Below, in pieces: positions 3,722-7,470 of a stretch of 64,000 nt of DNA (position 1 is the first letter of the stretch; every line of letters starts with the position of its first letter). The notes under the pieces were generated by a model that saw nothing but the letters and a program-made list of their open reading frames with translations, did not search any database and was not told where the DNA came from. Position numbers and translations under genes: made by a program. This stretch comes from Pseudomonadota bacterium (GTDB taxonomy: Bacteria; Pseudomonadota; Alphaproteobacteria; Dongiales; Dongiaceae): the NCBI GenBank assembly GCA_016183985.1, contig JACPDN010000006.1, positions 124,001 through 188,000 on the forward strand. Reading direction: 5' to 3'.

Positions 3722-5152
3722 ATGCCGTTGGAACTTAACCGTCGCGCCGACCTCACCCTCGGCAATTACCAGCGCGTGGCCTGGGAAGGCGCCACTGTAC
3801 GACTGGGTTCTGCTGCACAGGCGGCGATGGCCAAGGCCAGGACAGCCTTCATCCACCTGCTCGACACCGATCCCGAGATCACCATCTATGGCGTCACCAG
3901 TGGCTACGGCCAGCACGCCAACAAGCGCTACACCGGCGAGGCGCGACGGGCCCATGCCCAGCGACCACCGCGCAGCCCCGCGGTTGCATTCGGCGAGGCG
4001 GCACCAGAGCGTGTCGCGCGCGGCATCATCTTCGCACGGCTGGCCAATTTCATCGAAGGGCATGCCGCGATCACACCGGCTTTGGCAGATGCCGTGGCGG
4101 CGCTGCTCGATGACAAGCTGCCATCGGTTTCGATCAGCGGCCAGGGTGGCGCTGGTGAGATTCTGTGGATGGCGCCGCTCATCGTCGATCTCGCCGAAAG
4201 CTTTCCGCTCGGTGAAAAGGATGCGCTCTCGCTCATCAACGGCTCGCCGGCGGCAAGCGCGCTGATTGCCGATGCGGCGATCGCCATGCGCCGACGTCTC
4301 GATCTCGCCGAGCGTGTCTTTGCGCTCTCGGCCGAAGCAATCAAGGCGCCACTCGAAGCCTATGACGCAGCCTTTGAAGATCTGTGGGGCGATGCGTTCG
4401 AGGCAGAGGCCCTGCAGCGCCTGCGCGCATTGCTGAGCGGCGGCGCCAATCCGCGCCGGCCCTATCAGGCGCCGGTCTCCTATCGCATCCTGCCGCGCGT
4501 GCTGGGCCAGATGCGCCGCGCCGTGGCTCAGGCTGAAGAGATCGCACTTGGCTCGCTGCAATCGGTCACCGACAACCCGGTCTTCCTGATGCCCGATGCC
4601 GCGAACCCGAAGGCACGCGTCTATAGCAATGGCGGCTATCACAACGCCCGCGCCTATCCGGCACTCGACAATCTTGCCGCCGCCGCCGCCGATCTCTGCG
4701 TGCTTGCCGAGCGGCACAATACCAAGCTGCTCGATGGCCGTTATTCGCTGCTGCCCGATCAATTGCAGGCAGCTGAAGAGGCTTATATCGGCATCATGGG
4801 CTTTGCCCATATCGGCTATGTCGAAGAGGCCAAGCGCGCGGCGCAGCGCAACTTCCTGCCCGGCAGCGAGGCGGGCGGCTTCGGCCAGAACGATGTGGCG
4901 CCGATGACGGGCCTTGCCTGGAAAGCACAGGAAGAGGCCGGCCGTTGCCTCGACGCAGGCCTTGCCATGCTGGGCGCGGTCGCTTCGCAAGGCTTGCATA
5001 TGACGGATCGCGCGGCACCGCCGGCGCTTGCCGAAACACTGGCAACCATTCGCCGGCATTTCCCGCCGATGACCGCCGCACGTGTCTTCGGGCCCGATCT
5101 CAAATCGCTTGCCGACGCGTTCCGCGCCGAAATCTATCGAGGTCAGTCATGA
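3722..5152 (+). CDS. Aromatic amino acid ammonia-lyase homologue lacking the MIO triad
   Basis: A 476-residue protein with the full-length histidine/phenylalanine ammonia-lyase fold. Conserved landmarks are YGVTSGYG (56-63), LINGSPAASAL (N173) and the YSL segment at 341-343. The segment that normally reads GASGDLAPL reads GGAGEILWMAPL, so the Ser that forms the MIO electrophile is Ala144. The Arg of YSLR is Leu344, and the Glu of the QEDH motif is Asn390 (GQNDVAPM). Histidine or aromatic lyase activity by the normal route is therefore unlikely. The start at 3722 has AAGGGGG about 10 bases upstream; an upstream in-frame extension to 3593 has no homology. The stop overlaps the next start (ATGA). 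Confidence 0.85.
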   Translation: MPLELNRRADLTLGNYQRVAWEGATVRLGSAAQAAMAKARTAFIHLLDTDPEITIYGVTSGYGQHANKRYTGEARRAHAQRPPRSPAVAFGEAAPERVARGIIFARLANFIEGHAAITPALADAVAALLDDKLPSVSISGQGGAGEILWMAPLIVDLAESFPLGEKDALSLINGSPAASALIADAAIAMRRRLDLAERVFALSAEAIKAPLEAYDAAFEDLWGDAFEAEALQRLRALLSGGANPRRPYQAPVSYRILPRVLGQMRRAVAQAEEIALGSLQSVTDNPVFLMPDAANPKARVYSNGGYHNARAYPALDNLAAAAADLCVLAERHNTKLLDGRYSLLPDQLQAAEEAYIGIMGFAHIGYVEEAKRAAQRNFLPGSEAGGFGQNDVAPMTGLAWKAQEEAGRCLDAGLAMLGAVASQGLHMTDRAAPPALAETLATIRRHFPPMTAARVFGPDLKSLADAFRAEIYRGQS

Positions 5153-5598
5153 GCGATCTTCTCTATCTCGAAGACCTTACCGTCGGACTGAAATTCACCA
5201 GCCCGACGCATGCGCTGGACGTGGCGCAGATCAAGGCCTTTGCGCGAGAATTCGATCCACAGCCTTTTCATACCGACGAAGGGGCGGCGAAGAACACATT
5301 CTTCGGCGGCCTTGCGGCGAGCGGCTGGCACACGGCGGCGATCACGATGAAGCTGCTGACGGCGACGAAACCGGGCATTGCCGGCGGGCTCATCGGTGCA
5401 GGCGGAGAAATCTCCTGGCCGCAACCGACGCGACCCGACGATGTGCTGCAGGTGACGAGCGAGATCTTGGAAGTGAAACCATCGCGCTCGAAACCGGAAC
5501 GCGGCATGGCGGTGATGCGGAGCGAAACGAAGAACCAGCGGGGTGAGGTGCTGCAGATTCTCACCTCGCGCCTCATCGTGCCGAAACGTGTGGTCTAG
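5149..5598 (+). CDS. MaoC-like hydratase/dehydratase (hot-dog fold)
   Basis: A 149-residue single hot-dog domain protein of the MaoC/R-specific enoyl hydratase type. The catalytic signature is FDPQPFHTDE with the Asp and His in place, followed by FFGGLAASGWHT, which normally lines the substrate tunnel. Members hydrate or dehydrate acyl-CoA-like substrates, though some have other thioester substrates. The start codon overlaps the stop of the MIO-less lyase homologue by 4 bases, so the two are translationally coupled and probably act on the same compound. The specific substrate cannot be read from sequence. Confidence 0.87.
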   Translation: MSDLLYLEDLTVGLKFTSPTHALDVAQIKAFAREFDPQPFHTDEGAAKNTFFGGLAASGWHTAAITMKLLTATKPGIAGGLIGAGGEISWPQPTRPDDVLQVTSEILEVKPSRSKPERGMAVMRSETKNQRGEVLQILTSRLIVPKRVV

Positions 5599-5617: not shown

Positions 5618-6169
5618 CTACTTCAAGAAATCGGCGACCAGCTGCCGGCTGTAGGGAATGTCGAGTGGTTTCGCGCTGAAGAGGATGCGGTACATGATCG
5701 GCGCCACGATCTGGTCCATGGCGCGCTCGAGATCGAACGGCTTCTCACCACGCGCCTCGGCGCGTTCGACGATGACCTGCAGCTGATCCTGGATGAAGCC
5801 GCAGCATTGCTTGGTGTCGTTCGGGTTGGCGCAGGCATCGCGGATCATGCCGCGACAGGCATCCGACGACATTTCCTCCATGAATTGCTCAGTCCAGGCA
5901 GCAAGGTCCGCTTCCTGCGAACCGCAATCGGCGGGATCGGCGATGGGGCGCAGGCGCGAGACAGCAACATCAGACAAAAGCTCGGCAAGGTCGCCCCAGC
6001 GGCGATAGATGGTCGAGGGCGTCACCCCCGCCTTCGCGGCGATCATCGGGATCGTAAGGTCGGCGCGCGGTGTTCTGGCGGAAAGATCCTTCACCGCCTG
6101 ATGCACCGCCTCCTGGATACGGGCCGAACGCCCACCAAACCGGACTCTCTCCCTGGTGCTCATACCCAT
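5618..6169 (-). CDS. TetR family transcriptional regulator
   Basis: A 183-residue regulator. The N-terminal helix-turn-helix is at about residues 38-58 (TIPMIAAKAGVTPSTIYRRW), and the rest is the helical ligand-binding and dimer domain with the DPADCGSQ and ACRGMIRDAC segments. It is divergently transcribed from the MFS exporter, the common arrangement in which the TetR protein represses the neighbouring pump until an inducer binds. A 9-bp perfect inverted repeat in the shared gap is a good candidate operator. A second possible start is Met3 at 6163. Confidence 0.9.
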   Translation of the reverse strand: MGMSTRERVRFGGRSARIQEAVHQAVKDLSARTPRADLTIPMIAAKAGVTPSTIYRRWGDLAELLSDVAVSRLRPIADPADCGSQEADLAAWTEQFMEEMSSDACRGMIRDACANPNDTKQCCGFIQDQLQVIVERAEARGEKPFDLERAMDQIVAPIMYRILFSAKPLDIPYSRQLVADFLK

Positions 6170-6279: not shown

Positions 6280-7470
6280 ATGTCGAGTGCCGACGCCGCT
6301 TTAGCCCCCGTGACCAGCCGTCGCGCCATGGCGTTTTTCGCGGGGCTCAGCCTGGCGGCGATCCTTGCCGGGTCGGCCGCTCCGACGCCGATTTACCGGC
6401 TTTATCAAGAGGCCTGGTCCCTTTCGCCGCTGACGCTCACCCTCATCTTCTCGATCTATGCGATCACACTGTTGCTGTCGCTGCTGACCGTCGGTTCGCT
6501 TTCCGACTATGTCGGGCGGCGTCCGATGATCTCGGCCGGCCTGCTCCTCAGCGCCGTTGCCATGGTTCTCTTCATCGAAGCGGATTCCGCCCCCTGGCTG
6601 ATCGCGGCACGCGCCGTTCAGGGCCTCGCCACCGGTGCGCTCACCAGCACGCTCGGCGCCACCATCCTTGATAGCAATCGCGAGAAAGGCGCCATGCTCA
6701 ACAGCCTGATGCCGTTCTTCGGCATGGCGGCTGGCGCACTGGGTGCCAGCTCGTTGGTCACCTTTGCCCCCGCCCCGCTGCAACTCGTCTATGTCGTGAT
6801 GATGACCCTGTTCCTGGCACTGGCCGCCATCGTCTGGCAGATGCCGGAAACGGCGAGCCCGATGGCAGGCGCCTGGGCCTCGCTGAAGCCCCATGTCGCC
6901 GTGCCGGTGCAGGCGCGCCGCCCACTCCTCCTCATCTCGCCGGTCAATATCGCGGCTTGGGCGCTCGGCGGTTTCTATCTGTCGCTGATGCCGTCGCTCT
7001 TTCGCGTGGCGACGGGCCTGACTTCGCCGTTGCTGGGTGGCAGTGTCGTCGCTGTGCTGACCCTGAGTGGTGCGGCAGCCGTGCTGATTGCCCGCACATG
7101 GCATGCGCGCCGCACGCTCATCCTAGGGACGGCGACACTCATCCCCGGCGTCGCGATAACGCTGAGCGGTGTCTATTTCGAAGCGGCACCGCTGCTCCTC
7201 GTCGGCACGATCCTGTCCGGCCTCGGCATGGGCGCCAGCTTCTTCGGCGCCTCGCGCAAGGTGATGCCGCTGGCCGAGCTGCATGAACGCGCCGGATTGC
7301 TCGCCGCCTTTTATGTCGAAAGCTATCTGGCGTTCAGCCTGCCGGTGATTCTCATCGGACTTGTGGCACCGCATCTCGGCCTGCCGGTCGCCAGCTATCT
7401 CTATGGCGGCACGCTGATGATGCTAGCCGCCATGTCATTGCTGGCAACCCTGCTCTCGCGCCAGAATTAA
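6280..7470 (+). CDS. MFS efflux transporter
   Basis: A 396-residue protein with about 12 hydrophobic segments. The loop 2-3 motif A of the major facilitator superfamily is visible as GSLSDYVGRRP, and the first helices carry SAAPTPIYRLYQ. Proton-driven export of a small molecule is the usual role for this group. The SD AAGGATGGAAGG is just upstream of the ATG. It diverges from a TetR gene that probably controls it. Its last 4 bases overlap the 3' end of the convergent Crp/Fnr gene. The exported substrate is unknown. Confidence 0.88.
   Translation: MSSADAALAPVTSRRAMAFFAGLSLAAILAGSAAPTPIYRLYQEAWSLSPLTLTLIFSIYAITLLLSLLTVGSLSDYVGRRPMISAGLLLSAVAMVLFIEADSAPWLIAARAVQGLATGALTSTLGATILDSNREKGAMLNSLMPFFGMAAGALGASSLVTFAPAPLQLVYVVMMTLFLALAAIVWQMPETASPMAGAWASLKPHVAVPVQARRPLLLISPVNIAAWALGGFYLSLMPSLFRVATGLTSPLLGGSVVAVLTLSGAAAVLIARTWHARRTLILGTATLIPGVAITLSGVYFEAAPLLLVGTILSGLGMGASFFGASRKVMPLAELHERAGLLAAFYVESYLAFSLPVILIGLVAPHLGLPVASYLYGGTLMMLAAMSLLATLLSRQN

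Follow-up and report, generated by a model that had tools for sequence, protein, structure and literature searches.

What can a protein of the ammonia-lyase family do when it lacks the Ala-Ser-Gly (ASG) tripeptide of the 4-methylideneimidazole-5-one (MIO) prosthetic group? The question is raised by one gene in a stretch of 64,000 nucleotides (hereafter the window; positions 124,001 to 188,000 of contig JACPDN010000006.1, assembly GCA_016183985.1) from an alphaproteobacterial genome near Dongia, whose named relatives, at 71-82%, are metagenome-assembled genomes (MAGs) of a Dongia sp., Dongia mobilis and a member of the Rhodospirillaceae. The earlier note on this DNA took the product of the gene, P0002, for a working MIO-free protein rather than a decaying one. 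That judgement stands, on the evidence of a conserved clade, purifying selection, retained Tyr, Asn, Arg and Asp residues and a confident fold. Judged by its sequence, P0002 is a member of a real, conserved, deep and unnamed clade of MIO-free lyases. We favour the reading, at a probability of roughly one in two, that it is an MIO-independent lyase acting on a substrate with a good leaving group, the likeliest case being the release of trimethylamine from an amino-acid betaine.

Membership of the family follows from the PF00221 profile (182.7 bits, cut-off 27.3). The predicted structure of P0002 is a confident fold of the helical lyase type found in histidine ammonia-lyase (HAL), tyrosine aminomutase and ergothionase, the ergothioneine trimethylamine-lyase of Treponema denticola (6s7j/6s7q), and ergothionase is its best structural match by a near tie. 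Against the HutH equivalog TIGR01225 it reaches 145.8 bits, below the cut-off of 539.15; P0002 is not HutH, and we do not assign it to ergothionase. Two alignments were used: A1, with 15 genes of the bacterial family, and A2, with 51 sequences (omitting L068 and L098, which were wrongly taken to contain an inner stop, L087 as short, L081 and L114 for their cut ends, and L101 and L103 to L107 as near relatives of included rows). Because the 51 rows of A2 were picked as hits of the window clade, agreement among them is partly a selection effect. The gene and its positions of interest, all on the plus strand and with row counts from A2, are as follows.

3722 to 5152, plus strand: MIO-less PF00221 lyase P0002, 476 residues, intact frame
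3887 to 3889, plus strand: Tyr56, 51 of 51 rows
4139 to 4162, plus strand: loop G140-QGGAGE-I147 in place of the MIO loop, without Ala-Ser-Gly
4238 to 4240, plus strand: Asn173 of LINGS, 50 of 51 rows
4484 to 4486, plus strand: Arg255, the Arg of YSLR, 51 of 51 rows
4892 to 4894, plus strand: Asp391 of QEDH, here QND, 51 of 51 rows

No ASG tripeptide occurs anywhere in the P0002 sequence, as had been claimed, and the loop G140-Q-G-G-A144-G-E146 stands in place of the triad. Aligned with the HutH of its own genome (GQGGA-GEIL against GSVGASGDL), this loop is one residue shorter; by eye it equals in length that of ergothionase 6s7j (SSIGEGDI). From G140 to I147 the loop contains neither Ser nor Cys nor Thr. 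With one residue fewer, the position of the gap is ambiguous, and the replacement of Ser by Ala144 put forward in the earlier note is one valid placing, favoured because the copy L134 reads D-ASG-E at this site. L134 (L134:8644-10074, from the genome G101) has the loop GQD-ASG-E, with the tripeptide at the MIO place, where the other clade rows examined are without it.

Of three further residues of the MIO enzymes, the Arg and Tyr of YSLR and the Glu of QEDH, P0002 keeps the Arg. As originally described, P0002 retains YGVTSGYG, which includes Tyr56, as well as the LINGSP Asn (Asn173), and has Asn390 where QEDH has Glu. The Arg of YSLR had been matched to Leu344, which was mistaken: Leu344 belongs to another segment, RYSLLP, and the counterpart of YSLR is VSYR, in which Arg255 is kept and Tyr has become Val252 (Val in 50/51 rows). 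Gly145 and Glu146 join Tyr56, Arg255 and Asp391 as invariant residues of A2, so that the loop reads x-G-E in every row, with position 144 being Ala in 40, Pro in 8, Ser in 2 and Glu in 1. Eleven further copies from G101 agree on x-G-E, Tyr56, Asn173 and Asp391 (11/11 each) and on Arg255 (10/11).

Other departures from ASG were seen in the wider family. The window's own genome encodes another HutH-like protein (L042:4161-5684; G000:C9:88208-89572), which scores 528 bits to HutH models yet lacks all three residues, its loop being GSV---GYIVHGAHIG; a relative at L020 (G013) carries the identical loop. A PF00221 paralogue in L027 (G010) reads GSIGASDLCQLAH, the ASG triad without its Gly.

P0002 is under purifying selection. 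Its closest relatives share 91, 82 and 80% identity and the identical motif. Measured against the three nearest genomes, its ratio of nonsynonymous to synonymous substitution (dN/dS) is 0.072, 0.105 and 0.146; three additional genomes give 0.158 to 0.265, and dS reaches 1.4. Among 41 related genomes (its own included), 21 hold a match at E 0.001 or better and 12 one below 1e-100; the weaker matches have about 25-38% identity where listed. Wider draws gave matches at E 1e-60 in at least 17 of 385 genomes of the class and at least 4 of 398 of the phylum (own included), which are lower bounds since at most four candidates were scored per genome. Two single families of the class gave 11/16 and 2/5 genomes, respectively, at E 1e-100, and copies also reside on megaplasmids of two Rhizobium species. 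The 2.7 Mb alphaproteobacterial genome G101 alone has 24 window-type matches (E at most 3.3e-142, in 29 rows), 13 of which were themselves rows of the query alignment, together with seven urocanase-family matches, two of them above the cut-off of the S-methyl thiourocanate hydratase model. The G101 lyases (L077, L078, L079, L131 to L138) stand partly in tandem arrays, and one lies beside a peptide-type ABC importer.

The clade was placed in an unrooted tree of 40 rows, 23 of them family rows drawn from A2. In it the window clade groups with the L041-type proteins at 100/100 support, and all MIO-less rows lie on one side of a weak branch (78/68), the MIO side being represented by HutH-type rows only. 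A single switch in MIO therefore suffices, and the MIO-free state might be the older one. Independent loss of MIO in several lineages was considered and is unsupported, since the MIO-less rows group together and one change is enough. Among the open-access literature matches listed on ergothionase and MIO, MIO-less enzymes, ergothioneine catabolism clusters, hercynine and methylhistidine lyases, thiourocanate and hydantoin, and S-methyl or urocanate hydratases with ergothioneine, no title or abstract opening describes the clade.

How might such an enzyme work? In HAL and in phenylalanine ammonia-lyase (PAL), a Tyr removes the beta proton and an Arg binds the carboxylate. In P0002 we take Tyr56 to be the equivalent of the family's catalytic base; it would remove the beta proton of a substrate whose alpha-amino-acid-like carboxylate is held by Arg255. 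The alpha substituent would then depart without help from MIO, being a good leaving group in itself, and by analogy with ergothionase acting on ergothioneine it would most likely be trimethylamine. PMC13405746 describes this MIO-free elimination of trimethylamine by ergothionase. The reaction would yield an alpha,beta-unsaturated acid, an acrylate, to be passed to a partner specific to each sub-clade, which may be a urocanase-type hydratase or a UbiD decarboxylase. In the window's branch the route might instead run through activation by CoA and hydration by MaoC, plus a thiolase in one relative, as four loci suggest.

The substrate class is suggested by the gene neighbours of relatives, surveyed at 51 loci, 50 of them with a window-type lyase and some genomes contributing several. 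At L044 (Rhizobium jaguaris) ErtD (760 bits, cut-off 600) and ErtE (575, cut-off 520) stand beside the lyase, an arrangement that the window lacks, and the locus also has an OpuAC betaine-type binding protein. A urocanate hydratase (945 bits, cut-off 375) ends 8 bp before the lyase of L071, and an S-methyl thiourocanate hydratase (890.8, cut-off 880) lies upstream of five tandem lyases in L077. Methylamine-type genes adjoin the lyase in L068 and L081 and are 4-6 kb off in L067, where Etf-like frames were identified by eye alone. For the relatives, the substrate class with the best support is that of histidine-derived betaines (hercynine, ergothioneine and S-methyl forms). Two other leads were dropped: the carnitine-type and betaine-aldehyde-dehydrogenase-type neighbours of L105 fall below their cut-offs and were not used, and hypaphorine was rejected as a substrate, the word being absent among the open-access literature matches listed.

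UbiD lies near the lyase at 8/51 loci. The two genes are immediate neighbours on one strand, in both orders, in L070, L110, L102, L108 and L109, at gaps of about 3 to 31 bp that depend on the gene starts used; UbiD is divergent in L045, separated by ErtD and ErtE in L044 and by a LysR gene in L067, and UbiX is present in L044, L045 and L067. In L045 (Rhizobium tropici CIAT 899) the stretch from UbiD to the lyase yielded only a 77-residue piece that matches ErtE, and a match to ErtD was absent. The eight loci represent few independent events, because those of them that are tree rows (L044, L067, L070, L102, L110) share one sub-clade. A role for UbiD in acrylate use is the least certain part of the proposal, since its nearest solved structures are 6h6x/6h6v and since L044 has it together with ErtD and ErtE, whose action would leave the carboxylate in place.

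A number of observations weigh against betaine elimination by P0002. The best tree places ergothionase and an ergothionase-like protein of L067 on the HutH side, away from the window clade; forcing them together with the clade costs 6.06 log units and is not rejected (approximately unbiased p-AU 0.0748), and the placement is provisional, given a fragmentary ergothionase row and a very long branch for the L067 protein. The clade is not uniform either: Ser precedes Gly-Glu in 4/62 rows, all from G101 and two of them among the eleven further copies, of which L134 reads Ala-Ser-Gly, and L133, another G101 copy, has Asn at the position of Arg255. Most of the 51 loci are without ergothioneine, urocanase-type, betaine or UbiD reference genes, and a scan of the window with the reference set found only the lyase, MaoC and weak ABC-ATPase matches, with no Ert, urocanase, UbiD or betaine-importer gene. 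In the window's genome nothing matches ErtD at E 1e-60, and the single HutU-type hydratase there scores below the S-methyl model cut-off and is about 65 kb away. Among 49 genomes, a hydratase exceeds the S-methyl cut-off in one and an ErtD exceeds its own in one, G260, where the ErtD and the lyase are on different contigs. The hydratase of L071 scores as an ordinary urocanase, the UbiD of L070 scores under the cut-off of its family and is broken into two frames, and 6h6x/6h6v, which we take to be HmfF, a furan dicarboxylate decarboxylase, is not an acrylate decarboxylase. In L038 and L068 the lyases are paired with D-threonine-aldolase-like and peptide-type ABC genes. The HutU-type hydratase just mentioned (G000:C13:192697-194316) was the only match in its genome at E 1e-100; it scores 724.6 bits to NF058531 and lies about 4.7 kb past the window end.

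The same Tyr/Arg pocket could serve an MIO-free enzyme of another reaction, such as a hydratase, an isomerase or an eliminase of a sulfur, hydroxyl or phosphate group. This is the rival that survives best, and we regard it as possible though less likely: the clearest names among the neighbours, namely (methyl-)thiourocanate, urocanate, ErtD and ErtE, fit elimination to an imidazole acrylate, and a hydratase or isomerase role has no direct support. The loss of the MIO triad and of the QEDH Glu would also suit a dead lyase turned into a binding or regulatory protein, an option offered in the earlier note. We consider it improbable and do not favour it, because Tyr56, Arg255 and Asp391 persist in 51/51 rows and several relatives stand in catabolic clusters; operonic pairing with enzymes and 24 copies in one genome are likewise hard to square with a sensor.

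A third alternative, a shade less credible than a binding protein, makes P0002 part of an acyl-CoA pathway that depends on MaoC in general. The genes downstream of the lyase are the following.

5149 to 5598, plus strand: MaoC-like dehydratase/hydratase domain protein (PF01575, 43.1 bits, cut-off 27)
5618 to 6169, minus strand: TetR-type regulator (PF16859, PF00440), convergent neighbour; membership of the unit uncertain
6280 to 7470, plus strand: major facilitator superfamily (MFS) transporter (PF07690); membership of the unit uncertain

The stop of the lyase gene and the start of the MaoC gene do overlap, as ATGA at 5149-5152. The nearest solved structure to the window MaoC is 3exz (174 bits), and its dN/dS is 0.055 and 0.166. 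The MaoC of G006 is 92% identical, and in G002 a thiolase and, by eye, a regulator-like frame separate the lyase from MaoC; the overlap, the identity in G006 and the thiolase speak for the acyl-CoA alternative. MaoC is nevertheless at the locus for only 4/15 A1 genes (window, G006, G003, G002; adjacent in three), its match in G003 is spread over two frames, and no match was found at the remaining loci of the survey at E 1e-12. The partnership with MaoC proposed from the overlap therefore holds at most for the window's small branch; at other loci the neighbours are UbiD, ErtD/ErtE or a urocanate-type hydratase, or none is recognised.

It is very improbable that P0002 is a classical ammonia-lyase or aminomutase that builds its prosthetic group from other residues. 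Such an enzyme is suggested by the four G101 rows with Ser before Gly-Glu and by the ASG of L134, but the loop of P0002 offers no Ser, Cys or Thr, is one residue short, and goes with a HutH score far under its cut-off (145.8 against 539). A decaying gene or sequencing artefact, for which one might cite the short G498 relative, is hardly credible given the open frame, the relatives at 91, 82 and 80% with the same motif and a dN/dS well under 1. That relative (L087, G498:C68) ends after 407 codons, others having about 476; the stops in the G137 and G761 copies are their own terminal stops, and only the G498 copy is short.

Frames resembling two further genes of the window lie near the lyases of relatives. 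MFS-like frames of one cluster are found at four relatives' loci (L028, L029, L031, L035), and the window MFS protein was likened to them by eye. The minus-strand frame at 878-2911 encodes a 677-residue protein without a Pfam match at E 0.001, and frames of a single cluster and similar size (677-692 residues) are near the lyase in four relatives.

If elimination from a betaine is indeed the activity of P0002, MIO-free elimination, for which ergothionase is the one named enzyme, would extend to a large family, and genes would be at hand for testing how soil and root bacteria break down amino-acid betaines. A broader proposal, which we regard as tentative and on balance unlikely, is that MIO-free lyases of this kind make up a large family with diversified substrates, cleaving trimethylated or similar amino acids, with a different acrylate consumer for each sub-clade (urocanase-type, UbiD or CoA/MaoC). 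If true, bacteria would have in it a general way of bringing amino-acid betaines into metabolism, with an expansion in G101 to 24 lyases and seven urocanase-family copies. For annotation, the HutH-like scores of clade proteins deserve care; the name HutH would mislead, because the window protein cannot make the cofactor of HutH.

Among known systems, tyrosine 2,3-aminomutase (2ohy, 3kdz) and tyrosine ammonia-lyase (2o6y) are MIO-dependent, and their MIO motif is absent from P0002. HutH shares its fold with P0002, and also the positions of the Tyr, Asn, Arg and Asp; P0002 differs from it in lacking ASG, in Val for the Tyr of YSLR and in Asn for the Glu of QEDH. The L041-type proteins (PSEGLGMAGEI), sister group of the window clade, are 32% identical to P0002, L041 being likewise without ASG, and have an ornithine-cyclodeaminase-family gene nearby in L041 and L139. 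Genes of the ornithine-cyclodeaminase/mu-crystallin family (L041, L068, L129, L139) were seen near lyases of the L041 type, near one lyase of the window type and near a urocanate hydratase. Ergothionase shares with P0002 a PF00221 fold without MIO at 18% identity; its loop reads GEGD where that of P0002 reads GAGE, and the Asn of LING, kept in P0002, is by eye replaced in ergothionase (SCN).
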